From: Natrinema salinisoli
Lineage (GTDB): Archaea > Halobacteriota > Halobacteria > Halobacteriales > Natrialbaceae
Reading direction: 5' to 3'
NCBI RefSeq assembly: GCF_020405205.1
Contig: NZ_CP084469.1
Span: forward strand, 248,001-312,000
Length of the DNA: 64,000 nucleotides
Shown: piece by piece, positions 31,359-49,016 of the stretch
Layout: each line of letters opens with the position of its first letter
Numbering within the stretch: the stretch's first letter is position 1
Made by a program: the position numbers and the translations under genes
Notes under the pieces: generated by a model
Seen by the model: only the letters and a program-made list of their open reading frames with translations
Databases searched by the model: none
What the model was told of the DNA's origin: nothing

Positions 31359-31606
31359 CGAGGCGTCCGCGGTCGTTCCGTTCCCTCGTCAGTCGGTGTC
31401 GTCTCCGATCAGAACCGATTATTCGTTTGGGTCAGTCGTCTAGATCGCGATGGGTCGGCATCCTCGAGACTCGTCGCTGGTTGTTGCTCGAGTGGAACGC
31501 GATACCGGGTGCGGCGGGGTTCGAACTACGTGAACGGCTCGCTCCGCTCGCCGTTCTCTCATTCGAATCCCGGTGCCCGTTCGCTCCTCGCGTCCGTTCG
31601 TCGCAG

Positions 31607-31621
31607 AACGGGCGTGGCGGG
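31607..31621. other. Candidate left attachment site (copy of tRNA-Arg 3' end)
   Basis: AACGGGCGTGGCGGG is identical, in the same orientation, to 48577-48591, which covers the 3' terminal bases of tRNA-Arg(CCU) plus two flanking bases. After a one-base gap the similarity continues imperfectly into the T-arm region (TTCGTTCCCA against TTCGAACCCA). Base composition changes just to the right. This is the pattern left when an element integrates at a tRNA 3' end. Confidence 0.55.
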
Positions 31622-32280
31622 CTTTCGTTCCCAATGGAACGGTTTCACTTGGTGGGGACGGAATAAACTCATCCCCCACCTATGTGAATCGATACTGGAA
31701 TAGTAGATTTGATAATTTTAAATATATTGATAATGTAGGTTAGACTTCGAATAAGCATTTTACGCTGATGGGATTTCTACCTCGCCGCTTCCGTAAATCG
31801 CGATAGCATGTCTCATATATTGGACCTCTACCGGGGCAACAGTGGATCCAAGTTGGCGATATCAGATAATCGGTTTCTGGAAGTTGACAGTGGAATTCGT
31901 GGTCGACTCGGCACCGTCTATGTGATCGCGGACGTGACGAATGGGTGCAGAGTGTAAGGAGGGAGTATGGTTCTGGACGTGACATTCGTGAGTGTGCTCC
32001 TTAAGTGGACAATCATCAACGAAGCCATGCCACTTGCGACGTGGTCGATCATCAAACGCTAATTGGACCAGTACTTGAGGTCACAGCTAACGCTGAATCC
32101 GCTGCTGACTGGCCAGACAACGACACCGCTGGACTCAGTCGTAAGGGAAGACCAGGTGTGTGGTAACTCACTCTGCCGACACGACCATGGCTGGCCCACT
32201 GGGCGGTGAGGTGTTGCCTACCGTTGAGATCAAGAGTACGATGAAAAATGTGAGACAAATTATGTTTGGTTCTCCTTGTC

Positions 32281-32417
32281 GACTCAGGAGATGAAGCCGT
32301 TATGTTGGCATCGGTGTACTGAATGATGGGGTACAGGTTGATGTCGAGCGCGTCGGTGAGTAACTCGATCGCGGTGTTGTAGCTGTAGGCGTTGCCGGTG
32401 TCAAGATTGATGACCAG
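32281..32417 (-). pseudogene. Possible remnant of an unidentified coding sequence
   Basis: Read on the minus strand, this stretch has coding-like composition (for example NLDTGNAYSYNTAIELLTDA and LYPIIQYTDAN) but an in-frame TAA stands immediately before it and no start codon precedes it. The frame runs on without a stop to 32052 but becomes non-protein-like. I do not recognise the family. It could be the tail of a gene truncated during island rearrangement. Confidence 0.3.
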
Positions 32418-32881
32418 TTAGTTGAGTATCTGCAGCGAACTCGAACCCACAGATGATGTCCAAAACATACGTAACCACCGTCGGCCGTGACTACTGCGTC
32501 GATTGCCTGAGTGCACTCGATCGCAGGTGGCGCGGTCACAAATGTGGGACGCCACCAACTGCGAGTGTTTCCCGTCAGACTAGGGACTGTGCTGTCGCCT
32601 GCTCAGATACCCTCTCCGCGTGTATGTTTTGTTTATAAATGGTAGTCACCGAAGCAAGGCGTCTACTACTGGTCACGCTGGCTGTAAGTGCGTATTGTGG
32701 ACGTATGGAAGCATCATATGGGTCGTTGGTGTGGGATTCAGCGTATGATCAACTACGATCGACGAGATGGAACATCCGAACACGGACGACGGAGACAGCC
32801 AGCGCTGCCCTCCCCACAGGTGTCACTCACCAGCACCCAAATGATGGCCGACGTATCCGCCGGGCCACGGGTCAAACAGCC

Positions 32882-33865
32882 ATGAACGTACTCGTCACCG
32901 GCGGGGCGGGGTTTATCGGCTCGCACATAGCCGACCGGTTGCTTGAGCAGGGACATCACGTCGTTACGCTCGATGTCCTTGATTCGTACTACGATCCGGC
33001 GATCAAGCGACACAACGTACAACGGTGTTCCGACGCAGGTGGTGAGCGATTCGCCTTCGTCGAGGGGTCAATCACTGACGAGCAGACGATCCGCGAAACC
33101 ATAACCCATCACGATGTGGACGTAATCTATCATAAGGCCGCACAGGCTGGTGTCCGTGCGAGTGTCAAAAACCCACACAAGGCCCACCGAATCAACACGA
33201 CCGGCCTAGTGACGGTGTTGCAGGCTGCAGCCGACCATGGTGTTGACCGTCTCATCAATGCCTCATCGTCCTCCGTGTACGGCGACGCCTCCAGTCTTCC
33301 TTACAAGGAAGACGAACGGCTCCGCCCCCGAAGCCCGTACGCCGTCACGAAGCTGACAGGAGAACACTACTGCCGCGTCTGGCATGATATCTACGACGTT
33401 CCGACGGTGAGTTTGCGGTACTTCACCGTGTACGGCCCGCGGATGCGACCGAACATGGCGATTACGAATTTCACTGCTAAGTGTCTCGAGGGCGAGCCAA
33501 TGGAAATATACGGTGATGGACGACAGAGCCGCGATTTCACTCACATCGACGACGTCGTTGACGCTAACCTCGCACTGCTTGAGACGGATGCGGCCGACGG
33601 TGAGGTGCTGAATATCGGCTCGAGCGACAATATTACGATCGTCGAACTTGCCGAACACATCGCCAAGGTGACGGACAGCGAATTTGCCCTCGAATACACC
33701 GAACCGGTGGCTGCGGACGCCCGCCATACCCATGCTGACGTATCGAAGGCCAGGGCGGTGATCGATTACGATCCGTCGGTATCGATTCGAGAGGGTGTCT
33801 CGTCGTTCGTCGACTGGTATCGACGGAACCGCGAGTGGTATGAACCCCTCGTCAGGCAGTCCTGA
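32882..33865 (+). CDS. NAD-dependent sugar-nucleotide epimerase/dehydratase
   Basis: Protein of 327 residues from the ATG at 32882; an open frame extends upstream to 32639 but the Rossmann motif GGAGFIGSH begins right after this ATG. The extended-SDR active site is Tyr153-x3-Lys157 (SPYAVTK), with the Ser residues in NASSSSVYG. It resembles UDP-glucose or UDP-N-acetylglucosamine 4-epimerases and nucleotide-sugar dehydratases; the RYFTVYGPRMRPNMAI segment is usual for the epimerase group. It would supply an activated sugar to the glycosyltransferases in this island. Exact substrate is not readable. Confidence 0.88.
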   Translation: MNVLVTGGAGFIGSHIADRLLEQGHHVVTLDVLDSYYDPAIKRHNVQRCSDAGGERFAFVEGSITDEQTIRETITHHDVDVIYHKAAQAGVRASVKNPHKAHRINTTGLVTVLQAAADHGVDRLINASSSSVYGDASSLPYKEDERLRPRSPYAVTKLTGEHYCRVWHDIYDVPTVSLRYFTVYGPRMRPNMAITNFTAKCLEGEPMEIYGDGRQSRDFTHIDDVVDANLALLETDAADGEVLNIGSSDNITIVELAEHIAKVTDSEFALEYTEPVAADARHTHADVSKARAVIDYDPSVSIREGVSSFVDWYRRNREWYEPLVRQS

Positions 33866-34407
33866 TTGCGTCGAACCCCGACCGCGGACACGAAGCGGGC
33901 AGTGCTAGCGGTGAGTTCGCGCTCGCACTCACTGTTTCTGGTGGCGAACAACCGCCTCACTGTACTCAGCCGCCAGGCCCCGATCGATATCGCTCACCCA
34001 TCCTCGTGTGTCGACGTGAGTCCTGAGTGGGCGATCACTCGCGATGGCAGCCGTCGGCTGGCGGCTCAGTGAGACGGATTAACCCCTGCGGCTGGCCATC
34101 TCGCGCGAGGAACGCCGTCGCTTGGCATGACTTCTACTGACAGCCGTATATACCCTGTGTACTAGGAACCGGCCCCAAGGCCGGGTGTGATGGGTCGCCC
34201 GAGATCGGCATGATTACTCACTCTCGGCCAGCCAGTCCCATGACTGGTGGCAGTGGCCTGTCCCGACTTGGCAGACCACGTTCGGCTCGTCAGCAGTATA
34301 TGGTGCGACCAGTGATAAGCCCTCCCACTTCCTAGTCTCACAACCGGGACGTACAGGAGCGACGGGTACCGGGTAAGGTCTAAAGGCTCGCCGTGGAAGA
34401 GGGAGTG
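33866..34407. other. Intergenic stretch, no gene seen
   Basis: About 540 bases with only short overlapping frames. TATA-like sequences occur at CGTATATACC (about 34144-34153) and AGTATATGG (about 34295-34303), either of which could drive the downstream glycosyltransferase. No tRNA, repeat array or transposase motif was recognised. Confidence 0.4.
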
Positions 34408-36195
34408 ATGGGCTTGGAGTACCAATCGGTGGGCAGAACTGTTGCGCACTATTTACTCGCCGTGACAGTAGGGGGACTCGCGTTTGCGGCCGTTGGAGAC
34501 AGCACACCTCCTGTGCCACTGGGCTGGATGACGCTGGCCGTGTGTGGGGCGTTCATTGTCGTGACGGTGATGCGCCACTACGGCTCCGCAGCCGAGCCTA
34601 CTTCTGTGGCGATAACGCGGTCGGCGCGACCCCCACGGTCACCCGGGATCGTGGTGGGGCTGCTCGGGTTGTTGCTTGTCGGCGGTGTGCTCCGGGGGTA
34701 CGCGCTCGGCGTCCAGAGCTTCTGGTTCGACGAGGCGATATCGGCGAACGCCGCCATCGCGATCCTGGAGACGGGCCAGCCGACGTTTCCGTCGGGCTAC
34801 ACCTACTGGCGAGCGCTTCCCCACACTCTTATGGTGGCCGCGTCGATGGCACTCCTGGGCAGTGGCGAGGCGGCCGCGCGGCTCCCGTCGGTCGTCGCTG
34901 GTGTGATCACCATCGCCGCAACGTACTGGCTCGGCAAGAAGACCGGCGGAGCGCGGGTTGGACTCCTGGCAGCCACACTGCTGACCTTCGCAACGTGGGA
35001 GCTCGCCTGGAGCCGCCAGGCCAGAATGTACCAGCTGTTTCAACTCCTCTATACGCTCTCGATCGTGTTGCTCCTCGACGTTGGCCGGACGTGGTTCGAC
35101 GATGTCAGGACCGGTGTCACACTGGCCGGTGTCAGTGCGGGCGCCATGCTGACCCATCGGATTGGGTACGTTCTCCCTCCGATTACCGTCGTGTACCTTG
35201 CCATTAGAGGCAGCCTCGATCGGCAATTCACGCGTCGTACAGCGGGTGGCTTTCTCATGGGCACGCTCGTGCTTCTCGTTGTGGTTGAACTCGTATTCGG
35301 GGCCTTCGTGAGTTCCACTGCGACCATCGCGACGATAGACGGGAACTACGCGCTGGCCTATGCTGAGTGGCTGGCTGCCAACCTCCAAGGGATCTTCTAT
35401 CTCGGACTGCTCGGTACCGCACTGACGTTCTACCGCGGGTGGTATCGCGCTGGAACCGTACTCGTACTCGCGGTTGGGCCCCCTCTGTGGGTGCTGAGTT
35501 TTCACACTGAGCTCTACGCAACTCGGTATCTCTACTTCGGCGTCCCGATCTGGTTCGTGTGGGCGGCCGTGACGGTCGAGTACGTTGCCACCCTGGTACT
35601 CGAGGGAATTGCAGTAGTCGATCGGCGCGTACGACCAAGTAGTGGCTGCGGACACAGGATTACGTCGGGTCAGAGCAGAGGCGAAGTGACGCTCGTCGTT
35701 GCACTTGGGCTCCTGACAGTGCTGGCCAGCGGTGGTGGCGTCACTGTCATGCCACAGGCGACGTATGACCTTGGTCCCAACGCGCCACAGCCGGAGTTTG
35801 CGGAGGCATACGGGTACGTGAACGAGCACCACACACCTAGCGATGTCATCGCTGCTGGATGGACTGCGCCAGGGCTGTACTATAGTGGGGGTGTCGACTA
35901 CTGGCTGGCACACGACCTACTCGGAAACGGGAATCGGTGGACCGTGAACGGTGAGGAACGGTATGCGGGGGCTGAGCCGGTGACATCAGCAGACGACTTA
36001 CAGACCGTGATGGAGAACCACGAACGTGGATGGATCATCATTGACGAGATCGCCTTTGCGCGACTGTCCCCAGACACGCAGGCGATGATCCAAAACCTCC
36101 CCCAAAAGCATTCTGGATCAGTCGATGTCTATCAGTGGAATTTCTCTGAGTCCCGAGAGAGAGACGATACTGCGCCTTTCACCGTCCGATCATAA
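34408..36195 (+). CDS. GT-C membrane glycosyltransferase (family 39-like)
   Basis: Protein of 595 residues with about ten to twelve predicted membrane helices. The first external loop has the SFWFDEAISANAAIAIL motif near residue 105; this acidic motif is the catalytic signature of dolichyl-phosphate-sugar dependent GT-C enzymes of the PMT/ArnT group. The C-terminal 150 residues are a soluble external domain (YVNEHHTPSDVIAAGW...). I chose the ATG at 34408 (GAGGG four bases upstream) over the GTG at 34393. Likely transfers a lipid-carried sugar to a glycan or protein outside the membrane. Convergent with the next gene. Confidence 0.75.
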   Translation: MGLEYQSVGRTVAHYLLAVTVGGLAFAAVGDSTPPVPLGWMTLAVCGAFIVVTVMRHYGSAAEPTSVAITRSARPPRSPGIVVGLLGLLLVGGVLRGYALGVQSFWFDEAISANAAIAILETGQPTFPSGYTYWRALPHTLMVAASMALLGSGEAAARLPSVVAGVITIAATYWLGKKTGGARVGLLAATLLTFATWELAWSRQARMYQLFQLLYTLSIVLLLDVGRTWFDDVRTGVTLAGVSAGAMLTHRIGYVLPPITVVYLAIRGSLDRQFTRRTAGGFLMGTLVLLVVVELVFGAFVSSTATIATIDGNYALAYAEWLAANLQGIFYLGLLGTALTFYRGWYRAGTVLVLAVGPPLWVLSFHTELYATRYLYFGVPIWFVWAAVTVEYVATLVLEGIAVVDRRVRPSSGCGHRITSGQSRGEVTLVVALGLLTVLASGGGVTVMPQATYDLGPNAPQPEFAEAYGYVNEHHTPSDVIAAGWTAPGLYYSGGVDYWLAHDLLGNGNRWTVNGEERYAGAEPVTSADDLQTVMENHERGWIIIDEIAFARLSPDTQAMIQNLPQKHSGSVDVYQWNFSESRERDDTAPFTVRS

Positions 36196-36432
36196 TCCTC
36201 TGCTCGTCCGCCCTAATGCCAGCACTGGACGAACATATGCTCCGAATTATTATTATATCCTGTGAATTAGAGTTGTACTAAATGGCACCGGGGAACCTCC
36301 GATCCCGTTTTGAGCTACGGGAACGTGGCTGAGAGGGCGAACCTCGGCTCTCAATTGGCAACTTCCGCGCGACGGTGTCTCGTACACGCTGCAAGAGCCC
36401 AACCAGCCATATTTAGATTTGAGCGCCCACCT

Positions 36433-38733
36433 CTATAGACTGGCTTGGAGACATTGATTGCGGATTGCGCCTTCGCAAGAGAGTCGTCCATGACCAAAGT
36501 TGGAAACGGCATCCAGTTCCTCAACTGAGTAATCCGTGTAGGCTGTGTGAACATCTATGGAGTCAGGAGCAACTAGCGGAGAAATGGATCTCCTTGTGTT
36601 TAGTTCTGTTTTATTTATCATACTCTGATTAAAGTAATAAACTTCTACAGATGTCTCATCAATACCTTCGCCATGATATTTTTCAAAGTGTCTGGAGATA
36701 TAATTTCGGATCGCGGGATCAATGTGGTAGCTCTTTCGTGTTTCCCAGGTTATCCAACCAGACCCATACTGGAGGAGATCGCGATAAAATTGCGTCGGGG
36801 AATATTGTTGATGACTTTCCATATCGACTACGGTGGCGTTGTCATTTACATCTTGAAGATAATATCCTCGTAAATATTGACCGAATATGGCCTCCTCGCT
36901 CGCATCATAGTTTGTCTCTATTGTCTCATAGGCAGCCGAGTATTCCTCGTCATCATCGGTGTACAGGTCCCACAGTGTGTCGCTCTCTGGTCCGGGAGCA
37001 AGGGGTGACGCGAGATTAAGAACCAACAACCCAACTAACACGTATCTGATGAGCGGTGAGTCAAAGATGGAGATGAATTCATGAGTGCCAAATATCAGTA
37101 GGATCAGGGCTAGAGGTACGATGTGAACAATGTACGCAAAACTCGCGTATCTATCAGCGACATACATGAGGAAAATCAATGAAAAGCTGCACGTAATGTA
37201 CAAATACATGAGTTTCGACCGTACAGGCTCGTCCCGCGTTACGTGAATAGAAAACAAGCCGAAGAGGACGAAGACAACCCCGAGAGAGCGCCCAAACGGG
37301 AATCGAAGCAGATAGTTGAAATAGATGATATTCTCCCGGCCGAAATAGGAGAGGTAATAGGGAAGAAAGGCCAGACGATCTGTAAACGTAACTATCAGTG
37401 ATACTACACAGAGACCGAGCATCCCTCCGGAGGCTGCAAGGAGATACTTTCTCTCTTGAGTCGTTATGGTCTTGTATAGAACGAACAGATATGCAGCTGG
37501 GAGAACAAATAATGTATTTATGTGGACACTGTATCCCAAATAGAGGACTGGAAGTGTTAGAACAGCTAGTTTGATATCGAAATTGAGCCAAGTGTTCACA
37601 AAGTCATTGATTGGCTTCTTGCGGAAATCTATCGTGTTTTCCCCAGTCATTATTCGATGGCTGAGATAAATTAGCAAGAGAAAGAGAGGAATCACCAATG
37701 AATACATTCTGGCCCAGCGGAAGTAAAAGGTCACGGATGGATAGAGGAAAAGCGAGGCACTGGTGAGAAGAGCGATCCACTGCCGTTCAGTGAAGTAGGC
37801 GACAACATAGTAGGTTAATAGAACAGAGAACACACCGGCGATCGCGGATGGAACTCGCGCTGCCCATTCAGAGATCCCGAAGACGACGTACGATCCAGCG
37901 ATGAAGACGGTGTGGGGCCACGCGCGATCATAGAGGACAGGAGTCGGTTCGGAAGCGATCCAATCCCAGAGATAGAATTCACCAGTGTGATAGTAGCCAG
38001 CGGCAGCAGAAATCGTCTGGAATTCATCACCGATAAACGAGATTTTCCCAAGTCGGTAAAAAAAGACCGCCGCTGCCAGCCCAGTGAGCAGAGAGAGGCA
38101 GACAAAATGCCACGTCTGCTGGTTCTGCTGCTCGGTGAGATTCGACCGCTCTGAGTAATATTGACGGTCCCAAATATTCAATCCAACAAATACCACCGCC
38201 AGCACAGCAATCCCTGGCTGGGCAACGAACGTGAGGCTATCGAATAACGGATTGAGTAAGAGAAGGGTCCCTAGCACAAGCCCACCACCTTTCGTTACAC
38301 GTTTTGCGGTACGGTCGCCCCGTAGAGCCAACGTTACTGCGACTGATAGTACTGTTACACCGTAGAGGAGCGGTATATTTATGTAGAACAAAATTGAGTA
38401 TTTTAATGATAATAAATACGATATAATTAATAATATAAGTAAATTGCGTGCAATATATGTGAGTATGTCAGTGTTTGCTATCGGCAACGCTCCTAGGAGG
38501 AGACGCTCTCTTTCCTTCCACAAGATTTGTAGCGATGAGTAGTAGTGGATGAACACGCCTGCAAGACCAGCGATAAACGTTACTAAGAAGAATAACCGTA
38601 TGTTGAGATAGATTTTTGGTTGTATTCCACCTACCCATTTCAGTACACCAATAGCAAGGTAGCTGGCCACGAGCATACGTGCCGTAGTGACGATGAGTGC
38701 GTCTAGCTTCAACTGTTGCTGATTTTTGCTCAT
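36433..38733 (-). CDS. Large GT-C membrane glycosyltransferase
   Basis: Protein of 766 residues, AT-rich codons. It has an extra block of about six helices (1-190) before the GT-C core, whose first external loop carries SFIGDEFQTISAAAGYYHTG near residues 230-250. Further helices and the WARMYSLVIPLFLLL segment match the family-39 pattern, followed by a soluble C-terminal domain. The Asp-Glu pair is in the expected place. Its start overlaps the stop of the LamG gene (ATGA), so the two are translated together. Sugar donor and acceptor are unknown. Confidence 0.7.
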   Translation of the reverse strand: MSKNQQQLKLDALIVTTARMLVASYLAIGVLKWVGGIQPKIYLNIRLFFLVTFIAGLAGVFIHYYSSLQILWKERERLLLGALPIANTDILTYIARNLLILLIISYLLSLKYSILFYINIPLLYGVTVLSVAVTLALRGDRTAKRVTKGGGLVLGTLLLLNPLFDSLTFVAQPGIAVLAVVFVGLNIWDRQYYSERSNLTEQQNQQTWHFVCLSLLTGLAAAVFFYRLGKISFIGDEFQTISAAAGYYHTGEFYLWDWIASEPTPVLYDRAWPHTVFIAGSYVVFGISEWAARVPSAIAGVFSVLLTYYVVAYFTERQWIALLTSASLFLYPSVTFYFRWARMYSLVIPLFLLLIYLSHRIMTGENTIDFRKKPINDFVNTWLNFDIKLAVLTLPVLYLGYSVHINTLFVLPAAYLFVLYKTITTQERKYLLAASGGMLGLCVVSLIVTFTDRLAFLPYYLSYFGRENIIYFNYLLRFPFGRSLGVVFVLFGLFSIHVTRDEPVRSKLMYLYITCSFSLIFLMYVADRYASFAYIVHIVPLALILLIFGTHEFISIFDSPLIRYVLVGLLVLNLASPLAPGPESDTLWDLYTDDDEEYSAAYETIETNYDASEEAIFGQYLRGYYLQDVNDNATVVDMESHQQYSPTQFYRDLLQYGSGWITWETRKSYHIDPAIRNYISRHFEKYHGEGIDETSVEVYYFNQSMINKTELNTRRSISPLVAPDSIDVHTAYTDYSVEELDAVSNFGHGRLSCEGAIRNQCLQASL

Positions 38734-39512
38734 GGTGATCGAATCCGACTCTCTAACTGGGCTAGAAAGACTACCAAACTCAGTAAGACGAGAACGGTTC
38801 CCGTCCGAAATGCGTCAGAATAAATGATGGGCCTGATTGTTTGTTGGTCAGTGTACATTCCTCGGATTTCTTCAGTAGTGAGTGCTCTCTCATGAAGTGT
38901 TATCTCACCAATTTGCCCCTGATAGGGATATCCTCCAGGCCGTTGTCCAATAAAGAGCGTGTCCTCCGTCGGAATACTGCCCCCCGACTTGGACTCTACT
39001 AATTCCCCATCGACGTAGAGTCTGGTGGTGCCATCCCGATGGACGACAGCTAAGTGGTGCCACGCACCGTGGTTGTCCACGTCGTACTGAAGTGTTGTAT
39101 CCCCAGCACTGAATTCGTACTTTCCATAGGGGGCGACAAGTTGCCATGATTTACCGGCGATGATCCCTGCATAGTATTTGTGATACTTATTCTGAACTGT
39201 GGTCGTGAGCGTAAAATCACCGCTCAATTCGTTATCTAATTGGACGTGGATGTAGCCCGACTCTTCGGAAAAGGAAAGAGAGCCAGGAGAACGGTTTGTC
39301 TGATTTGGTTTTTCCCCTACGAACGTAGCATTGCTTGCTGCCGGGCTCAGATCCTCGATTCGATCACCGTCTTCGTACGACCCAGTAAATTCGTAATGGA
39401 GTACGAGGTCTTCGCTGAGGTCCACAGTATTCGAATAGTGAGTGAATCCAACAAGAAATATCGCCGTAGATAATATGAGAAAGATCAACGATGCCGATTT
39501 AATTACGCTCAT
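38730..39512 (-). CDS. Membrane-anchored LamG (concanavalin A-like) domain protein
   Basis: Protein of 260 residues: an N-terminal membrane helix (about 5-25), a LamG/laminin-G-like jelly roll (about 35-220) with the typical NHGAWHHLAVVHRDGTTRLYVD (core WHHLAVVHRDG) and IGQRPGGYPYQGQIGEI segments, and a C-terminal membrane helix (about 232-250). This fold binds glycans. Coupled to the following glycosyltransferase by a 4-base overlap, so it may recognise or present the glycan that the enzyme extends. Not seen as a standard partner of GT-C enzymes as far as I know. Confidence 0.75.
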   Translation of the reverse strand: MSVIKSASLIFLILSTAIFLVGFTHYSNTVDLSEDLVLHYEFTGSYEDGDRIEDLSPAASNATFVGEKPNQTNRSPGSLSFSEESGYIHVQLDNELSGDFTLTTTVQNKYHKYYAGIIAGKSWQLVAPYGKYEFSAGDTTLQYDVDNHGAWHHLAVVHRDGTTRLYVDGELVESKSGGSIPTEDTLFIGQRPGGYPYQGQIGEITLHERALTTEEIRGMYTDQQTIRPIIYSDAFRTGTVLVLLSLVVFLAQLESRIRSP

Positions 39513-39898
39513 GTGGAACGACTTTTGAGTGACTTCCAGTCAGTCTTGGCGCTGAAATGTGTGTTACGGATTGTCCCTCCTTCAAGAGCCGATCGCCCGC
39601 TAATACTATCCACGCAGTCATACTTCCACAGGGCATCACAGAGTACAGATATACCTAAGATTGTTTCGCCGGTTAATGGCGATCCAAAAATCGCAAGTTA
39701 GAGTTGACAACGATACAGTCTCCTACACTACCAGAAGATATGTATTCCAAATAAGGAAATAAGTGACTCTGTACTATAGATGTCTGTTTCTAAAGAGGAT
39801 GTCAGGCCTATTTCAGTTCAATAAGTGATTTCCTCACTCTCACACTTTTTCTTGGGGTGAGAACAAGAAGATGATTGGTAATTTGACAACTCTGGAAG
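39513..39898. other. AT-rich intergenic stretch, no gene seen
   Basis: About 390 AT-rich bases between two minus-strand genes. Only short frames interrupted by stops. It presumably holds the promoter of the LamG-glycosyltransferase pair and the end of the FkbM transcript; no clear hairpin terminator was identified. Confidence 0.4.
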
Positions 39899-40714
39899 TT
39901 AATTCCCTCGGTAGACTGCGACATCCGACATTTCTTCAACGCACATAAACGATGATGAGGCAAGCGTGTTCCGTGCCGAGCGAATTTTATCGGCAAGATC
40001 CTTGAATTCCCGCCTCTGATCGTGAAACTCGATGAGAAGCACATCACAGTGAGCCTCAAGAGCAGCTAATTCCTGAGAAATCAAGTCGTATTCGCTACCT
40101 TCAATGTCTACAAGCAGCATAACGTTTGATAAGTCAAATTCACTTATAAGCGAACTAAATGACAGCGAATCCACAGTCTGGGTACTTCCTTCGGTCTGGT
40201 GAAGGCTGCCACTCCACTCTTCGTCGGGAACCGTAAGCGAGACCGGTTCGCGCGTAGGTGAATAGGCGGCATGAATGACTTGAAAATCACAGTTATTCAG
40301 GTCCCGATTACGTTCTAAGATCGGGATGAGGTGCTTGTTCGGTTCTACCACGATATGTGTCGAGTCAGGTGCCAGTTTCTGATTCGTATAACACGCTGTG
40401 AAGCCGACACAGCCACCGAGTTCAATCACGTCCTGCTCCGGTGTAATATAGGCATCGATCGCGTCTGCCTCGTCCGCTTCATAGCGCCCACGCGCAATCT
40501 CGAGTTGTATCAGTGGGGATATCTCTGCGTTCTGTAAATCTATTTTCACATCACGGTGGGTTAGGACATTGGGCAAAATGGTAGTCAGTATTTGGAGTCC
40601 AGAGGCGGCTGGGGCCGTTCGAAGAAGTCGATCCCACGCTTGACCACCAAGTCCACGCAATCCCCTCCGTCGATATACCTCTTTCGTCCGATCAAATACG
40701 GATCTTTCAGTCAT
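39899..40714 (-). CDS. FkbM family methyltransferase
   Basis: Protein of 271 residues. The SAM-binding motif is at 95-104 (DVIELGGCVG), followed by HIVVEPNKHLIPIL, and the FkbM-typical LLVDIEGSEYDLI at 201-213. Such enzymes O-methylate sugars or small molecules, and in glycan islands usually methylate a glycan residue. Soluble with a basic N-terminal helix region. It stands alone, 73 bases before the glycosyltransferase gene upstream of it, and may share its transcript. Confidence 0.85.
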   Translation of the reverse strand: MTERSVFDRTKEVYRRRGLRGLGGQAWDRLLRTAPAASGLQILTTILPNVLTHRDVKIDLQNAEISPLIQLEIARGRYEADEADAIDAYITPEQDVIELGGCVGFTACYTNQKLAPDSTHIVVEPNKHLIPILERNRDLNNCDFQVIHAAYSPTREPVSLTVPDEEWSGSLHQTEGSTQTVDSLSFSSLISEFDLSNVMLLVDIEGSEYDLISQELAALEAHCDVLLIEFHDQRREFKDLADKIRSARNTLASSSFMCVEEMSDVAVYRGN

Positions 40715-40787
40715 TGTCCATCCCAGTGCTACTAATTGAAGACGTTGGCTCTGTATTCTGAACCATAGGGACTCCTGAATATCGCAT

Positions 40788-41717
40788 TCAGTTCACGGAG
40801 AAACTGGTGACCGTTTCGAGGACTGTTTTCGCGCGATCAAGATGCCCGCGTTGTTTGAGTTCCCAGTGTATGCTTGGCGGAAGCTTGTACAGTGTACGTG
40901 CAGCGAGTTCGGTGACCCTGTTGCCGTACTCGGTGCTATGGTATTCCCGGATCAGATACCCCTGGACATCCCACTTCTTTGCGAAGTACTCCCGGCTTTG
41001 CCGCCGCTTCTGGTCGCTCATCCGGTGCTCTGCGTATTCCCGCATGACTCCCGGCCCTGGATCGTGCGTCACTTGGATCTCCGGAGAGATGGCAAACTCC
41101 CAGTCAGTCTGCAATGCATGCCCGAGAAAGAAATCCACGTGTTCACCGTCGATAACGTAGGCTTCGTCCCAGCAATATGCGTCGAACACTTCCGTTCGAA
41201 ACAGCGTACTGTTCGGTATAAAATCGTATTTGAAATACGTCACTCCTGCTTCGTCGGTGATGGCCTGCTTTTTGTCAAACACGTCGACAATGACCCAGTC
41301 ATCCACGATACGGATGTCGGCAGCACCGACCACGTGAGTTCCGTTTTCGAGCCATGAGGCCGCAACACCGCCAAGCGATGGGTCATTTTCAAGGACATTT
41401 TTTAGACGGAAAATATTCTCAGAGAGGTAATGGTCGTCATCAATCAGTAGTAAATAGTCGGTCTCCGTCTGGTCGAGAATCCGATTTCGTCCAGTGGCAA
41501 GTCCAGCGTCGGGTTTGAGATCCACGATCGTCAAGGGAAGATCAGACTTGAACTGAGCGTAGATATCTCGGTTGTATTCCTTTTGAGGACTATCATCCGC
41601 AATGATGATATCCTCCGGGGGGACAGGCAGGTCACGGATCGAGGCCAAACACGTTCGCAACTTGTCCGGCCGGAGGAAGGTCTTCAGGCCGATTGTGATT
41701 CCGGAATCGGAGTGCAT
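40788..41717 (-). CDS. Glycosyltransferase family 2
   Basis: Protein of 309 residues with a GT-A fold: ITIGLKTFLRPDKLRTCL at the start, IIADDSP at about 38-44 and the metal-binding DDD at 93-95 (LLLIDDDHYLSEN). The C-terminal part (ISPEIQVTHDPGPGVMREYA) holds the acceptor side. No membrane helix, so it acts at the cytoplasmic face. It adds one sugar from a nucleotide donor to a growing lipid-linked glycan or to a polysaccharide. Donor specificity is not readable. Confidence 0.85.
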   Translation of the reverse strand: MHSDSGITIGLKTFLRPDKLRTCLASIRDLPVPPEDIIIADDSPQKEYNRDIYAQFKSDLPLTIVDLKPDAGLATGRNRILDQTETDYLLLIDDDHYLSENIFRLKNVLENDPSLGGVAASWLENGTHVVGAADIRIVDDWVIVDVFDKKQAITDEAGVTYFKYDFIPNSTLFRTEVFDAYCWDEAYVIDGEHVDFFLGHALQTDWEFAISPEIQVTHDPGPGVMREYAEHRMSDQKRRQSREYFAKKWDVQGYLIREYHSTEYGNRVTELAARTLYKLPPSIHWELKQRGHLDRAKTVLETVTSFSVN

Positions 41718-41875
41718 CCACCTAGTGGACGGCTATTCTTAAGGAAAAACAGGCGTATCGTTTCTATCGCCGGATCAGGGTAACAGTATCTTATCACCAA
41801 TTCTAAATTGGGGAACCAGGATAGTATCTCCGCTCGACACCGACAGCAGTTCCACTCAGCGCTTATCCCTAAGAA

Positions 41876-43417
41876 TTACTCGGAGGAGTCTATGTAACGA
41901 TGAAGTAACGGAAATGTCCGCCCGGTCCGTTCCTCGACTCGAGCGAGGAATCGCACGTCTTCAGGTCCAATACCGTGGAAGCAAAGAATCAGCATAGGAT
42001 ACAACATGACCCAGACGATCGAAACAAGCGCGCCCGAGACATCCCCTAAGTCGATCAGGAGATACCCGGCGCTCCCAGTTAGAAATCCCATTAAACTTGC
42101 TCTCATCCCGCCCTGTGAAAGGGGAATAATTCGGAAATTCTGGTAGAGAACCGCCAAGTTGGCTGCGTTCTTCAGCACGATAGCCGATGTTGATGCAATC
42201 GCTGCACCCAGCAGGCCGAACACGGGGATTAAGAGCGCGTTCAAAACGAGATTGACTATTGCCGCCGATCCGGTCGTATACAGCACGGTGCGATTTTTTT
42301 CTAAGCCAATCAACGATTGGGAGGTCGCCCCCATCGCGACGGAGAGAACCGCTCCAAGGACCAAGACCCGGAGCGAGATTGCACCGTCGATGTATCCGTC
42401 GCCAAACAGAGTTCCAAGAACTGGTTCGGGAAAGACGAAGAGAACGAAAAATGGTGGGAGCGTGACAAAGACTGCCCACTTCGTGATGACTCGATAGACG
42501 ATCTGAAGCTCTGTCCGCTTTCCAGAGACATCCAGATGGGCTATCACTGGTGATAACAGGAATCCGCTTGCGACGATGACAGTGATGAGTGCCATCCGGA
42601 GCTGAAATGCGATATTGTAGATACCGACTTGTTCAGAGGAGAGATAATATCCGATCATGAAGGTATCCGTGTGAATGATGAGGTAGTTCATTCCTTCCAT
42701 GGCGACCAATGGAAGAGAAAACGCTAGTAACGGCCGGGCCATTCTGTCCGGCGTAACCTCCTCCCACGATGGGAGCATACGATAAGTAAACACAATCCCA
42801 CCGATTCCGGTCACCGTGAGCGCAATGATTTGTCCGGTCACCGCGCCGACGGCGCCGAACCCGGCAAGTACGAGTCCACTAATAAATACAAAGCGAGCAG
42901 TCGGACGGAGGATCTCGTAGATATAGGCATACGGGCGGGCGGATCGCAACCCTCGTGCGACGTTAAGAGCGATCTTTCCAACGACCAGAAACGGAATGCT
43001 AACCGCGCCAATCCGAAGTAAGCGGGTGAGCGATGGATTCTGAAAGAGTCGAACAGCCACTGGTTCGGAGACGATGACGATACCCGTGGCGATCACAAGC
43101 CCTGATATCACTCCGATCCGAAGTCCTGCTCGGACGACGCCGTAGACTTTGGCGTCTTCCTCCTCATACTCGGGAACCTTTCGTGTCATCCCTTCGTCAA
43201 GTCCGAGCGTCGCAAGCATCGTTGCGACCGAGACCACTGCGAGTGTAAGAATCACGCTTCCATACGCGGGCGGCAGAAGCCATCGAGCCATCACCAGTTG
43301 CGTGAGAAACCCAAAGCCAAGCGCGATCACTTTCCCGCCGAATACGAGTAATCCCCCCGCACTAACGGTCTCGAGCGCGTCGGTGACTGTGTTTGGATTA
43401 TTGTTTTTACCGGTCAT
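41876..43417 (-). CDS. Oligosaccharide flippase (Wzx/MATE-like)
   Basis: Protein of 513 residues with about fourteen membrane helices, the PST/Wzx pattern: GGLLVFGGKVIALGFGFL near the N-terminus, PPAYGSVILTLAVVS, and the mid-protein SLPLVAMEGMNYLIIHTDTF segment typical of polysaccharide exporters. It would move lipid-linked oligosaccharide across the membrane for the extracellular GT-C enzymes or for protein glycosylation. A 168-base gap separates it from the upstream glycosyltransferase. Confidence 0.88.
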   Translation of the reverse strand: MTGKNNNPNTVTDALETVSAGGLLVFGGKVIALGFGFLTQLVMARWLLPPAYGSVILTLAVVSVATMLATLGLDEGMTRKVPEYEEEDAKVYGVVRAGLRIGVISGLVIATGIVIVSEPVAVRLFQNPSLTRLLRIGAVSIPFLVVGKIALNVARGLRSARPYAYIYEILRPTARFVFISGLVLAGFGAVGAVTGQIIALTVTGIGGIVFTYRMLPSWEEVTPDRMARPLLAFSLPLVAMEGMNYLIIHTDTFMIGYYLSSEQVGIYNIAFQLRMALITVIVASGFLLSPVIAHLDVSGKRTELQIVYRVITKWAVFVTLPPFFVLFVFPEPVLGTLFGDGYIDGAISLRVLVLGAVLSVAMGATSQSLIGLEKNRTVLYTTGSAAIVNLVLNALLIPVFGLLGAAIASTSAIVLKNAANLAVLYQNFRIIPLSQGGMRASLMGFLTGSAGYLLIDLGDVSGALVSIVWVMLYPMLILCFHGIGPEDVRFLARVEERTGRTFPLLHRYIDSSE

Positions 43418-43585
43418 CTCTTATATGGTCCTGCTCTCAGTCGAACTCACATCCGACAATGTTCCGCTCAAAAATGTGTTGAAGAGGGCTATACGCCACG
43501 CTGCGAAGGCCTCTGTCTCTTCACTGTACAGTTCGATAGAGAATGGAGGAATTATGTACCTCATTTTTGTAATTGGTAGTCCTTA

Positions 43586-44713
43586 TCATAACGTGCCTAA
43601 CGTGTGTCGCTGGCTGTCGCTCAATAGCTGTTCATACTGACCGCCGACCCAGTCCCAATCGTACTTCTCTTCGACTCGATTCCGTGCTTGGTGTTGCAAC
43701 CGGGTTCGCATGTCAGGATCACGGAGTAGCTGATTGAGTGCATTTCTAAAAGCGGGAATATTCTCTGGATCGACGGTCAGTCCTGCATTCCCAATGACTT
43801 CCGCAGTCCCGCTGTACTTCGACGCAATGATTGCAGTTCCTGCCGCCATCGCCTCTTGTAACGCTACCGGACAGTTCTCGTGACTTGACGGGAATACGTA
43901 TATCGCAGATGTTTCGAGCAGAGTCATAAGTGTCTCCCGTTCGACCCAGCCAGGAAAGGCAACGGTGAGGTCAAGCCGATTAGCTAGTTGCTCCAGGGTG
44001 TCCTTATAGGGACCTTCGCCAGTGATGACAACTTCCCAGTCGGTATCAACGGTGGTGAGCGTCTCAAGGAAGTGTTGGACTCCTTTCCGTTCAAAGAGGC
44101 GGCTAGTGAGAAGAATGCGTTCTTCGGTCGCTCTATTTGCATCGTATGCCCCGTAGTCGAAGCCGTTTGGAATAATCTCGATAGAGAGGTCTGTACCTGC
44201 CGACTGGACTCGGTCAGCGAGATAGCGTGAGGGTGAGACGATACAGTCTGCCTCTGTGGCGACGCGCCGCCAAATTGGTCCCAGAACCTGATGAAGCCGG
44301 CTAAATCGATCCGGGTTGTACCCTGGAACGTCAGAACCGTGTGCAGTGATAAAGTACGGTATATCGTAGAAGCTGCTTAGTGAGTATGCAAGGATTCCAG
44401 TTGGAATAATAAAATGTGCGTGGATAGCATCATAGGTGTGCTCGGCCAGCAATTGGCGTGCTTTCACGAACCCGGACGGAAGATAGCTCAACATTTCGTG
44501 AGGCCGTGACATCGATTGTGACTGACGAAGCGCAGGGACCCGGTAGACATCGATACCGTGTTTCCGCTCCTTTCTCGGCAGTTCACCATACTTCATTGTG
44601 ACAACATCTACCACATGACCGTGTTCGACGAGAGTCGAAGCGAGTGATTCAGTGACCGGTGCTGCTCCACCACCGAGTGGTGGGAACTCGTAATTAAGCG
44701 TCAGAATGCGCAT
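43586..44713 (-). CDS. Glycosyltransferase family 4
   Basis: Protein of 375 residues, GT-B fold. N-terminal FPPLGGGAAPVTESLASTL, middle EIIPNGFDYGAYD, then ILLTSRLFERKGVQHFLETL and the EX7E-type region FPSSHENCPVALQEAMAAGT. A retaining transferase using a nucleotide sugar in the cytoplasm. It overlaps the end of the preceding GT2 gene by 20 bases, so both belong to one transcript. Confidence 0.9.
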   Translation of the reverse strand: MRILTLNYEFPPLGGGAAPVTESLASTLVEHGHVVDVVTMKYGELPRKERKHGIDVYRVPALRQSQSMSRPHEMLSYLPSGFVKARQLLAEHTYDAIHAHFIIPTGILAYSLSSFYDIPYFITAHGSDVPGYNPDRFSRLHQVLGPIWRRVATEADCIVSPSRYLADRVQSAGTDLSIEIIPNGFDYGAYDANRATEERILLTSRLFERKGVQHFLETLTTVDTDWEVVITGEGPYKDTLEQLANRLDLTVAFPGWVERETLMTLLETSAIYVFPSSHENCPVALQEAMAAGTAIIASKYSGTAEVIGNAGLTVDPENIPAFRNALNQLLRDPDMRTRLQHQARNRVEEKYDWDWVGGQYEQLLSDSQRHTLGTL

Positions 44714-45728
44714 TTTCTCCCCTCTCCCTCGGGAACTGGTCCGGCATCGTCACTGGTGGTTCTGCTTCAACCGGCTCAGCAACTTCATCGCCGGTGAGTA
44801 CTGCTGTTACGCGGTAGGCGTCCTCCTGCTGGACTGTGAAGTAATTCTTAATACCGATGTCAGCTAGGATTCCTGAAATAAAGAACTGGATGCCGAGTAG
44901 GCACATGAAGACAGCAAACAGTGGTAATGCAGTGTCGGAGAGGCTCACGGTGTGAAGTATCTTCAGATACACCGAATACAATCCACTCAGGATACCGATG
45001 CTCCCGGTAAGGATGCCGATTCCCCCGAAGATATGTAGTGGTCGTGCAGAGTACTTCTGCCAGAACCAGACATTCAGCATATCAAGAAATCCCTTCGGAA
45101 GGCGTCGCCAGCCGTATTTGGTCTTGCCATTCTCACGCTCGCGGTGGGTGACTTCCAGTTCACCGACGCTGAATCCTCGCCAAGTGAGGAGAGGTGGGAT
45201 ATATCGATGCATCTCGCCGGTGAGTCGGATAGCTGTGGCCGCCTCCCGACGGAACGCTTTTAGGGTACACCCGAAATCGTGGAGATCCGTGCCGAGCAGG
45301 GCCTGACGCAGCATGCGTGCCACCGCTGAGGAAATCGTCTTTCCCCATGGATCTTCTCTGTCACGCCGCCAGCCGACAACACAATCAAGGTTCTCATGCT
45401 CTAATGCGTCGATAAGTCGCGGAATGTCCGTAGGATCGTTCTGGCCATCAGCGTCCAGAGTGACGATTATGTCCCCACGGGCGTAGCGTAGGCCCGCGTC
45501 AAGTGCAGCACTTTGGCCGAAATTCCCGCCAAATTTCACCACCACGACACGGTCATCGCTCTCGTGAATTGACCGGAGGACATCATAGCTCCCATCAGTT
45601 GAGCCGTCATCGACAAAGATCAGTTCCCACTGACGGTTTATCCCGGTCAACACATCTCGCGTCTCTTCGTAGATACGCCGGAGATTCTCTCGTTCATTGT
45701 AGGCGGGTAGCACTACAGATACCACCAT
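44694..45728 (-). CDS. Polyprenyl-phosphate glycosyltransferase (GT2, DPM1/GtrB-like)
   Basis: Protein of 344 residues. GT2 domain with VVLPAYNERENL, FVDDGSTDG and the DAD at 92-94 (VTLDADGQNDPTD), then two C-terminal membrane helices (about 233-260 and 270-295). This layout fits enzymes that charge dolichyl or polyprenyl phosphate with a sugar, which GT-C enzymes then use outside the cell. A 45-residue acidic tail follows. In haloarchaea related enzymes (AglD/AglJ type) act in N-glycosylation; which one this matches cannot be decided here. Confidence 0.85.
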   Translation of the reverse strand: MVVSVVLPAYNERENLRRIYEETRDVLTGINRQWELIFVDDGSTDGSYDVLRSIHESDDRVVVVKFGGNFGQSAALDAGLRYARGDIIVTLDADGQNDPTDIPRLIDALEHENLDCVVGWRRDREDPWGKTISSAVARMLRQALLGTDLHDFGCTLKAFRREAATAIRLTGEMHRYIPPLLTWRGFSVGELEVTHRERENGKTKYGWRRLPKGFLDMLNVWFWQKYSARPLHIFGGIGILTGSIGILSGLYSVYLKILHTVSLSDTALPLFAVFMCLLGIQFFISGILADIGIKNYFTVQQEDAYRVTAVLTGDEVAEPVEAEPPVTMPDQFPRERGENAHSDA

Positions 45729-45955
45729 ATTGCCAATACCTCGGTCAGTGACTACAGATAAGTCCGCGATCGTTTCGTTGGTTAACAGTGAAACTAAAGA
45801 TCTAAGCCAGTATTGTCAACGGAACCGACCAGCAGGAGAAGGAAACAGAAAATTGATTCAGACGCTGATGGGCAACCACGTAACGACAGTGGTCGTTTAC
45901 TTGGTGATACATTTCCTCCTTTTCAATACTCTGGTCCGCTTCGCACAGGTGTACG

Positions 45956-46693
45956 ATGAGACTAAATCTGAGAGCGCAAGTGCGGAGAACAGCACGTTCG
46001 ATCATTCCTATTAGTGAAAGTGCCCAGACGAAAGGGCTGTCCTTAGCGATTACCACAGTTGTCATTGTTGGGCTCACGGTCGCTAGTACGTCTGGCAGTG
46101 GCGTTGTAACCACGCTCACCGGTGACGAAGAGGTTGAGCGAGATGGGACTGTTACCCTCAATGTGACGATTGAACACGACACGGAGCCTGACGCAGAAGG
46201 GCACCTACTGACGATCACCGACCAAAGCGGTAATCGATTAGAGCAGGTATTTACGTTCGACGGGACGCCGGTTACGAATGTCTCAAATTCAACGGAGATA
46301 GACGAGCAAAAACTCGATCCAACACTCGAGATTGGGGACGAAACTACTCCCCAACAGACTGCCGGTGCTGGCTATGAAGTCGGTGCTGCAGGCTACGAAG
46401 TCGGTAGCCTAGCAGACAGGGAGACGTCACAAACAATTACGTACACGATCACGCTGAACGCGACGGCATTCGATACCAACGAGTACGACGCCCAGGTCGC
46501 GCTCATCACAGATCAAGTCAACGAGAGCTACACTCCACCAGTGGATACGTGGCCGTCTGATGATCTCGGAACAGCGTACGCTTCAAATAATCACACATTC
46601 GAAATCACCACCTCAGATCAGGTGGCTAAGTCGGACAAACCGTCCGATCGAACAGTGCATCCTACATTTACGGAGCAGAAGAGTGGTAGTTAG
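45956..46693 (+). CDS. Secreted or membrane-anchored hypothetical protein rich in N-glycosylation sites
   Basis: Protein of 245 residues. A basic N-terminus precedes one hydrophobic helix (LSLAITTVVIVGLTVAS, about 28-44), which could be a signal or anchor. The rest is beta-rich and acidic, with six Asn-x-Ser/Thr sites (NVT, NVS, NST, NAT, NES, NHT) and a duplicated GYEVG motif near residues 140-150. It diverges from the glycosyltransferase cluster. I do not recognise the family. Its position and sequon density make it a candidate acceptor of the glycan made by this island, but that is inference. Confidence 0.5.
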   Translation: MRLNLRAQVRRTARSIIPISESAQTKGLSLAITTVVIVGLTVASTSGSGVVTTLTGDEEVERDGTVTLNVTIEHDTEPDAEGHLLTITDQSGNRLEQVFTFDGTPVTNVSNSTEIDEQKLDPTLEIGDETTPQQTAGAGYEVGAAGYEVGSLADRETSQTITYTITLNATAFDTNEYDAQVALITDQVNESYTPPVDTWPSDDLGTAYASNNHTFEITTSDQVAKSDKPSDRTVHPTFTEQKSGS

Positions 46694-47188
46694 AGCGGAC
46701 GGCTATTCTCGTGCGTCCACCGCATCTCTGACTGGTGGAGTGGGCCACCACTGTTCGGCCAGTTTCTGCCAGTGGTCGAACTTAGTTTCCATTACTCCGT
46801 TGGCGTGACGGCAGGGTGTTCACACCGCAAGCAGTCCCGAGGAAGAGTTTAGTTTCGTGCTCGCTTCCTCCAGCGTACTCTACTCTACGGCAGGATGGAC
46901 GTGGTGTTGAAGTATCATAGACACTGGGTAGCCGAGTAAATATTGTTTTCCTATACCTGTGCCTTGTTATCTAGTGTCGGTGACGCTTGTGCAGTAATCG
47001 ATCGTTTTCGTTTTCCCGCCTTTGATAAAATCAGCGTTGACGGCCACTCTTTGTTTGTGCGCAGTGGAGGACTCAGTAGTAAAAATGCAGTAATTAAACC
47101 TGAGAGCGAACAGCCATAGTGACAGTGAAGAATTATAGCCTGCAACGCCCGTGCCTCTATTTATGCTGTCCGAGACTTAGCCGGGGGT
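46694..47188. other. Intergenic stretch before the nucleotidyltransferase
   Basis: About 495 bases with no supported gene. A minus-strand frame of 29 codons (METKFDHWQKLAEQWW... near 46700-46790) looks protein-like but is too short to call and may be a relic. A TATA-like CTATTTAT at about 47157-47164 lies some 27 bases before the ATG at 47189. Confidence 0.4.
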
Positions 47189-47923
47189 ATGCAAGCAGTC
47201 GTTCTCGCTGCAGGGAAAGGGACACGGCTTCGGCCACTTACCGAAGAGAAACCCAAAGCGCTTGTTGAGGTAAATGAGAAGCCAATTATTGAGGATATCT
47301 TTGAGAATCTTCTCGAGATCGGTGCTACAGAGTTCATCGTTGTCGTCGGATATCTAAAAGATAATATAATTGACCGATACGGCGAGACGTATCAGGGAAT
47401 TCCTATTACTTACGCCCATCAGCGAGAGCAGCTTGGGTTGGCCCACGCAATTCTTCAGGCCCAACCATATATAGATAATGATTTTATCCTAATACTCGGA
47501 GATAACATCTTCCGTGCGAATCTTGGAGACGTTGTTAACCGCCAGCGTGAGGAGCGTTCCGATGCAGCGTTCCTTGTCGAGCAGGTCCCGTACGAAGAAG
47601 CGTCCAGATACGGTGTCCTAGATACAAACGAGTATGGGGAAATCGTGAAGGTGATGGAGAAGCCGGACGATCCGCCGTCAAACCTTGTTATGACGGGGGT
47701 CTATACGTTCACACCGGCGATCTTCCGTGCATGTCAGTCAGTTCGGCCATCGAATCGTGGAGAGTACGAACTTCCAGACGCAATCGACCTCCTTCTTCAA
47801 TCTGGGCACACTATCGATGCAATTCGGATGAATGGCTGGCGGATTGATATCGGCTATCCCGAGGATCGGGAGAAAGCTGAAGAGTTTCTTACAGGCAAAC
47901 CTAAACCCATGTACGAGGATTGA
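47189..47923 (+). CDS. Sugar-1-phosphate nucleotidyltransferase
   Basis: Protein of 244 residues with the pyrophosphorylase signature LAAGKGTRLRPLTEEKPK at 6-23 and the sugar-binding segments ILGDNIFRANLGDV and EKPDDPPSNLVMTGVY. It makes a UDP- or dTDP-sugar from a sugar 1-phosphate and NTP. Its length and motifs match glucose-1-phosphate thymidylyl- or uridylyltransferases; haloarchaeal AglF is of this kind. It supplies donor sugars for the island. It probably starts a leaderless transcript. Confidence 0.88.
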   Translation: MQAVVLAAGKGTRLRPLTEEKPKALVEVNEKPIIEDIFENLLEIGATEFIVVVGYLKDNIIDRYGETYQGIPITYAHQREQLGLAHAILQAQPYIDNDFILILGDNIFRANLGDVVNRQREERSDAAFLVEQVPYEEASRYGVLDTNEYGEIVKVMEKPDDPPSNLVMTGVYTFTPAIFRACQSVRPSNRGEYELPDAIDLLLQSGHTIDAIRMNGWRIDIGYPEDREKAEEFLTGKPKPMYED

Positions 47924-48578
47924 ATGCCCTACCGATAAAGCCCAGAGGGTGCCGACGATCGCTCTAATATCGTCTCTCAGACCAAGTTTTTGGCCGCGAG
48001 GTAGACCAATGGTGAAGGACAGATCGTTGTCAACACGCACTGTCGCCTAACCACCGATGTTTCAACAGGGAGTCCACCGCTGGCTAGTAGGGGTGGTATG
48101 ATTTTCTAGAAGGCAGGGACCATGGTGAGTGGTGGGATCCAATTAATTGAAGTATACCTGATCGGGATAAAAAATGGTTTTGATGGGGTGTCAGAGGTAG
48201 GCATCTGGCGCGCGACAATATATTAGATGTCATATTTGTTATACTCTATGGGGCTCTGAAGCAGTCCCTACCACCTTCAAACTTCGGAAAGCAGCGCTCG
48301 GAACCCAATTTAACACTGTTTTTGTCGCCAGGTATGCCAGTCCTCGCCCTTTTGATGCTTGCCCTTGGTTTTAGATACACGGATTTGCACGACGAGATCA
48401 ACCCACGTTCCGGGACGGAACGAAATCACGGTAGATGTGGGACGGTGGTTTAAATCAGGTTACCGCCGTCTGTCGGATGTGGATCGTTCCCGGAGGGAAC
48501 GAGCGCTGAGAGGGCCATAAAAGGGATGGCGGAGAGGCCACCGTCGTCTGCTGGTCTCTCAATCTACACCTTATAAAA
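47924..48578. other. Gene-poor right edge of the island
   Basis: About 655 bases without a supported gene. It includes short hairpins, for example CGTTCC/GGAACG near 48405-48421 and GTTCCC/GGGAAC near 48484-48500. AT-rich patches persist up to the tRNA gene, after which composition returns to the chromosomal level. No integrase or transposase motif was recognised. Confidence 0.5.
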
Positions 48579-48591
48579 CGGGCGTGGCGGG
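48577..48591. other. Candidate right attachment site at the tRNA-Arg 3' end
   Basis: AACGGGCGTGGCGGG here spans two bases beyond tRNA-Arg(CCU) and its 3' acceptor and T-stem bases. The identical 15-mer occurs at 31607-31621 in the same orientation. The tRNA is on the minus strand, so its 3' end faces the island, the expected geometry for tRNA-targeted integration. Confidence 0.55.
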
Positions 48592-48651
48592 ATTCGAACC
48601 CACGATCAGAAGGTTAGGAACCTCCTGCCCTATCCGCTAGGCCACACGCCC
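48579..48651 (-). tRNA. tRNA-Arg (anticodon CCU)
   Basis: A complete 73-base cloverleaf on the minus strand. The acceptor stem pairs GGGCGTG with CACGCCC. The anticodon stem is GGAGG/CCTTC with loop TTCCTAA, giving anticodon CCT (CCU), which reads AGG codons. The T-arm is GTGGG-TTCGAAT-CCCGC. CCA is not encoded. No intron is evident. Its 3' end faces left, towards the glycosylation island. Confidence 0.93.
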
Positions 48652-48981: not shown

Positions 48982-49005
48982 CTCTATACGTTGCTTACCC
49001 GCTGG

Positions 49006-49016
49006 CAATTATAACC
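49006..49016 (-). promoter_or_regulatory. TATA-like box of tatA
   Basis: On the minus strand GGTTATAATTG lies about 28 bases before the tatA ATG, the spacing expected for a leaderless or short-leader haloarchaeal promoter. Confidence 0.5.

Follow-up and report, generated by a model that had tools for sequence, protein, structure and literature searches.

Genomic islands inserted at tRNA genes are already known as a kind, as are integrase-less relics of such tRNA-targeted islands, and the agl pathway of Haloferax volcanii exemplifies the haloarchaeal N-glycosylation clusters, which carry AglF among other components. The closest described systems are the GI3 island of Haloquadratum walsbyi, which occupies 52 kb at a tRNA-His gene and has a 43-nt repeat (PMC3119063), and SNJ2, for which a short attachment (att) site at a tRNA end has been reported (PMC8371274); the attP of Harhisp1 is annotated as 15 bp. 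Here we analyze a 64-kb window of the Natrinema salinisoli genome (the whole stretch of 64,000 nucleotides; positions are those of the window unless a contig is named), in which a 17-kb block carrying glycosylation genes (31607-48591) is very probably an integrative genomic island inserted at the 3' end of tRNA-Arg(CCU); as such it adds an example to the known kind.

The block is bounded by two copies of the 15-mer AACGGGCGTGGCGGG, at 31607-31621 and 48577-48591, both on the plus strand; no further copy occurs in the window when up to two mismatches are allowed. The target gene, tRNA-Arg(CCT), is intact at 48579-48651 on the minus strand (ARAGORN; RF00005, 63 bits), so that the right-hand, tRNA-proximal att copy, placed by the repeat search and the tRNA call, takes in the 13 terminal nt of the gene and 2 nt beyond it. 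The island adjoins the 3' end of the gene, the side that integration predicts. The distal copy, supported by the repeat search and by the empty-site alignments described below, has the same 15 bp, identical to the tRNA-Arg 3' end together with its 2 neighboring nt. A direct repeat of the tRNA 3' end in the correct orientation at both ends is a hallmark of tRNA-integrated islands, and an earlier sequence-only reading of this DNA had the positions, the shared orientation and the identity of the tRNA right. That reading had also made the island interpretation depend on the 15-mer being rare in the chromosome, and it stands on this count: the whole genome holds one additional copy (C1:892910), inside an unrelated coding gene, and the 15-mer is therefore not a dispersed repeat.

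The left copy partly overlaps a local palindrome, GCCCGTTC/GAACGGGC, which is present as the sequence-only reading had described and for which it had left room for chance. Spelled out, the alternative is that a native glycosylation locus diverged locally or was translocated and matches the 15-mer by accident, the palindrome favoring the match; the overlap itself, the third copy in a coding gene, and a related cluster in the chromosome of congener G003 can all be cited in its favor. However, the exact 15-mer arose in 0 of 300 first-order Markov simulations of 64 kb, the genome's second aglF locus lies elsewhere (C1:1.8466 Mb), and in relatives it is exactly at this sequence that the left flank meets the tRNA, which refutes an accidental match and leaves the alternative a probability close to nil. 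The palindrome is part of a native element that follows the tRNA, and is no argument against interpreting the repeats as att sites.

The evidence that carries the argument comes from the 28 congeners searched. The region spanning tRNA-Arg and the right-flank TatA gene (48667-49008, minus strand; PF02416) is conserved in all 28, and the main match to it starts at the repeat (query 176-180, corresponding to 48575-48579 of the window) in all but two; in G003 and G005 the region is matched in pieces. At the tRNA site, similarity runs past the repeat into the island in none of the 28, and the island occupies this site in none. The left flank, searched separately, contains an acyl-CoA dehydrogenase gene (30117-31358, plus strand; PF00441/PF02770/PF02771) that is the native neighbor of the tRNA in relatives: its match ends within ~0.5 kb of the tRNA match, with no island between, in 21 of the 28 congeners (the matches in G006 and G022, counted among the 21, are partial), while the remaining seven have the tRNA and TatA and lack the acyl-CoA dehydrogenase neighbor. 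When the flanks of the window are joined with one copy of the 15-mer, the resulting sequence aligns end to end across the junction with G019 (L035), the nearest congener by this locus (96% over the tRNA-TatA region), and with G002 (L038). The acyl-CoA dehydrogenase flank thus reads into the tRNA with a single 15-mer, as the sequence-only reading had expected of an empty site, which bears out its island interpretation; an empty site with one repeat copy in relatives is a second hallmark of a tRNA-integrated island.

A clean empty site would equally be left behind if the island were ancestral to the genus and had dropped out of the other species when the two 15-bp repeats recombined. This requires loss in every other congener sampled, the nearest (G019) included, and both the low guanine-plus-cytosine (GC) content and the scattered distribution of the genes speak for a recent gain; we consider ancestral loss very improbable. 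Under insertion, a circular element with an attachment core matching the 3' end of tRNA-Arg(CCU) would have recombined with the tRNA gene; the event would have restored the tRNA 3' end, moved the old 15 bp to the far side, and left ~17 kb between the acyl-CoA dehydrogenase and the tRNA.

Base composition likewise sets the block apart, as evidenced by a GC content of 52.2% in the island against 62.8% in the left flank and 63.3% in the right flank; such a shift from the host is a third hallmark of tRNA-integrated islands. The sequence-only reading had composition falling right after the left copy, which holds for the island overall (52.2 vs ~63%) and is simplified in detail: the island contains two GC steps (57.6% at 31.6-36.3 kb and 50.1% at 36.3-48.6 kb), and GC returns to 64% at 34-35 kb. 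Identity to the G003 cluster is also uneven along the island (epimerase 87-89%, PMT-like protein 54%, flippase 62%, aglF 81%), and together with the step at 36.3 kb this suggests a mosaic rather than one unit. The GC step and the strongly variable G003 identity are what two successive insertions would leave, one of 31.6-36.3 kb (57.6% GC) and one of 36.3-48.6 kb (50% GC), only one of them using the tRNA. A third att copy is nevertheless absent from the island, for instance at the 36.3-kb step, the next best internal match to the 15-mer being 12/15; moreover, the epimerase and the first PMT-like gene are also adjacent in G003 in the same relative order, so that both halves resemble one locus. 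We regard two insertions as unlikely, while keeping them in view.

This suggested mosaic structure is one of several observations that weigh against insertion of a tRNA-targeted integrative element. An integrase inside the island would be a further hallmark, and a genome search with PF00589 found none in it (C1:279.6-296.6 kb), in line with the sequence-only reading, which had seen none. Pfam and NCBIfam scans found no relaxase or replication gene among the island proteins, and no recognizable counterpart of the left end was found in related elements. The tRNA-proximal att arm described below has no match in phage and plasmid collections, and identity in sequence with viral att regions was rejected: its similarity to the att regions of SNJ2, HHPV4, Harhisp1 and LSV-48N is not above shuffled controls, the alignment scores falling below them. 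Two further candidates were set aside at the island ends. A tblastn search for an integrase remnant in the degraded left end, made with the integrases and other open reading frames (ORFs) of related elements (L069, L083, L088, L093, L099-L102), gave no convincing trace, and a plasmid origin of the degraded ends was not borne out, in that 31500-32640 has no plasmid match and at the right only aglF matched.

The absence of an integrase trace from the island, the 12 integrase-family matches that the PF00589 search returned elsewhere in the genome, and the common occurrence of AglF genes on haloarchaeal plasmids would all suit an element that never coded an integrase, whether captured from a plasmid by homologous recombination or mobilized by a foreign recombinase. 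Against this, the precise junction at the tRNA end and the att-like arm indicate site-specific recombination, and we find either route quite unlikely. Separately, ~16 kb ahead of the window, an open frame of 765 aa contains an integrase-family match (G000:C1:231787-232281; L194).

What argues for site-specific insertion by a recombinase, beyond the junction itself, is the right end of the island, which resembles sequence beside tRNA-Arg genes. The att arm at 48370-48576, recognized by its homology to tRNA-Arg-adjacent sequence, contains palindromes at 48407-48421 and 48486-48500 and ends in TTATAAA beside the core; a motif search found a short palindrome, GTTCCCAATGGAAC (31627-31640), by the distal att copy, which resembles the two at the other end. 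The pattern GTTCC(N2-8)GGAAC has only three matches in the window, all just inside the island ends, and these palindromes could be sites for a recombinase or an accessory protein. The ~120 bp at 48370-48489 are 74% identical, in matching orientation, to sequence directly beside tRNA-Arg(TCG) in the same genome (C1:64.2 kb); shorter matches adjoin tRNA-Arg(TCG) or (CCG) in several other genera, and the G226 match, 71% over 148 bp, continues through TTATAAA into a tRNA-end core. An integrase gene at C1:64.6 kb lies near the arm match in L098, with homologues near the match in L083, L088 and L093, and its product, which belongs to the tRNA-Arg(TCG) element, is 40-43% identical to the SNJ2 and HHPV4 integrases. 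The resemblance of the arm to sequence beside integrase genes at other tRNA-Arg genes supports the att interpretation independently of the repeat. An SNJ2-family integrase, one of the marks of SNJ2-type elements, is absent from the island and occurs next to the related arm at tRNA-Arg(TCG); a tRNA-end core of ~15 bp, another such mark, is found here at 15 bp and fits the short tRNA-end att site of SNJ2 (PMC8371274), which supports a link to this type. On these sequence comparisons, an SNJ2-type tyrosine integrase probably made the insertion, and would since have been lost or have acted in trans.

The tRNA-Arg(TCG) gene of the same genome carries a second integrated element, with an SNJ2-type integrase (L069:9202-10715; G000:C1 64.2-65.7 kb) and, within a few kb beyond it, proteins resembling Cdc6/Orc1 and the NrS-1 polymerase; a second core marking its far end is absent within ~50 kb at up to five mismatches. 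At L083:1480-2000 (G226:C1 about 2.185 Mb), an integrase gene is preceded, in this order, by an att arm, a tRNA-end core, a two-hairpin unit of the kind described below and a 3' fragment of a tRNA, in what looks like a unit captured between two att cores.

By Pfam and NCBIfam scans the 17-kb island carries ~11 genes. Beyond non-coding or degraded DNA at 31622-32638, which has no ORF of 100 aa, the plus strand encodes an NAD-dependent sugar epimerase/dehydratase (32639-33865, with homology from 32882; PF01370, 1.3e-68; 89% aa identity to the G003 locus) and a PMT_2/Agl23-like membrane glycosyltransferase (34393-36195; PF13231, with TIGR03663 below cut-off; 54% to G003). On the minus strand follow a second PMT-like membrane protein of 766 aa (36433-38733; weak PF13231 below cut-off; 49-50% to G003), whose sole full-length relative among 60 genomes is in G003, a LamG (concanavalin A-like) domain protein (38730-39512; PF13385, 2.5e-18), an FkbM-family methyltransferase (39899-40714; TIGR01444 over cut-off), a family 2 glycosyltransferase (GT2; 40788-41717; PF00535), a Wzx/AglR-type flippase (41876-43417; PF13440/PF01943; 62% to G003), a family 4 glycosyltransferase (GT4; 43586-44713; PF00534/PF13439; 67% to G003), and gt2b, a second GT2 gene resembling polyprenyl-phosphate-sugar transferases (44694-45728; PF00535, 2e-37; 74% to G003). 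The plus strand then carries a truncated gene homologous to that of an unclassified protein, 405 aa long in the G003 cluster (45956-46693; 56% over 216/405 aa; no Pfam match) and aglF, encoding a UTP-glucose-1-phosphate uridylyltransferase (47189-47923). The description of the interior as entirely glycan and sugar metabolism plus degraded DNA therefore holds for the most part, the LamG-domain protein and the truncated homologue being the additions it had missed. As for the marks of an agl cluster, the AglF equivalog scores above its curated cut-off (NF041313, 405.2 vs 400 bits), and no match to the AglB oligosaccharyltransferase is found among the scanned island proteins.

A chromosomal cluster of G003 (C1:2.829-2.848 Mb) contains homologous counterparts to most of the island genes, at aa identities from 42% (LamG) to 89% (epimerase), largely collinear in two blocks. 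The G003 locus differs in composition (61.7% and 59.1% GC in its two parts), in its position away from tRNA-Arg, and in the extra genes between its blocks. The cluster (L072:1886-17000; C1 about 2.826-2.841 Mb) lies a few kb from a tRNA-Thr(GGT) gene. At the threshold used, gt2b is present in one of the 28 other congeners and missing from the remaining 27; its confident relatives in the genome collection number three, all in metagenome-assembled genomes (Haloferacaceae, Haloarculaceae and Diapherotrites; 51-68% identity), and a fourth match, in the bacterium Coraliomargarita, is marginal. The second aglF of the genome has different neighbors, so that the island adds to a resident system, and its cargo may serve as another module for assembling a cell-surface glycan, one that supplements or modifies the glycan of the host.

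The palindrome at the left repeat led to a by-product of this analysis. It belongs to a displaced native unit of two hairpins at 31504-31606 on the minus strand, which includes a degenerate copy of the tRNA end (31504-31527; 19/24 match at 31504). The sequence 31504-31621 directly adjoins the tRNA in relatives, whereas here the island separates the unit from its tRNA; relatives have one unit, and at times two to three in tandem, at tRNA-Arg(CCT), with ~95-115 bp between the tRNA 3'-end copies. The core pattern of the unit occurs at one to five places in 26 of the 29 genomes of the genus. Of 30 such places that were retrieved, 25 are immediately 3' of a tRNA gene (Asp, Glu, Ser, Gly, Thr or Arg), and most of these 25 units copy the stretch from the T-loop to the 3' end of their own tRNA, including the tRNA-specific part of the acceptor. 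In the present genome, a copy of the gene's own terminal 22 nt (17-22 of 22) follows 14 of 46 tRNA genes at +80 to +161, against a best upstream score of 15. Order-wide, the pattern matches in 222 of 392 genomes, which represent 73 of the 95 genera, and a reversed-pattern control gave zero matches among the matches listed; outside the genus, 26 of the 29 places evaluated adjoin a tRNA. Elements of this kind are seen at L117-L146 and L195-L224, with the core pattern at about position 1501. When 26 units are aligned, the alignment folds as two hairpins, and 11 of the 23 pairs show changes on both sides; this is to be read with the caution that the invariance of several columns was imposed by the search pattern and that related sequences are weighted in full.

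On balance we lean toward an apparently undescribed haloarchaeal element family located just 3' of many tRNA species, order-wide and sometimes in tandem, one unit of which has been cut off from its tRNA by the island; the same claim includes its layout, in which a GAAC/GUGA-loop hairpin precedes the T-loop region of the tRNA in inverted copy, and a second hairpin then leads into the terminal ~22 nt of the same tRNA, copied in direct orientation and with the tRNA-specific acceptor end included. The units could be minimal mobile elements, structures for RNA processing or control, or decoy sites for tRNA-targeting integrases. Searches of the open literature yielded no account of repeats that follow haloarchaeal tRNAs; the nearest reported case is a short palindrome located ~10 bp past the tRNA genes of Methanopyrus kandleri, for which copying of the tRNA end was not reported (PMC5217627). 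This tRNA-linked element is a more novel lead than the island and may matter more. If it is real as a family, its units mimic the displaced tRNA end on which island finders rely, and the question of their function arises in archaeal tRNA biology or in defense against integration.

The island itself is a clear-cut example of how a module for cell-surface glycosylation entered an archaeal genome via a tRNA gene. Surface glycans can determine which viruses attach, and such cargo can therefore change virus-host relations; the candidate att-arm sequence, in turn, might help to recognize integrase-less islands at tRNA-Arg genes. Compared with known systems, the island resembles GI3 of Haloquadratum walsbyi in its insertion at a tRNA, its displaced copy of the tRNA 3' end and its restriction to one strain or species; GI3 keeps an integrase beside the tRNA, whereas the present island has none, and its cargo is mainly glycosylation genes. 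It differs from the agl N-glycosylation clusters in that an AglB match is absent among the scanned island proteins and a second aglF lies at C1:1.8466 Mb, and shares with them the AglF equivalog, the flippase, the GT2 and GT4 glycosyltransferases and the Agl23/PMT-like proteins. Relative to the betapleolipoviruses SNJ2 and HHPV4, which have SNJ2-type integrases, and to related proviruses, the island lacks an integrase and virus genes and has an arm unlike the virus att regions; what it has in common with them is a short att core at a tRNA 3' end and an arm whose homologue adjoins an integrase 40-43% identical to theirs.

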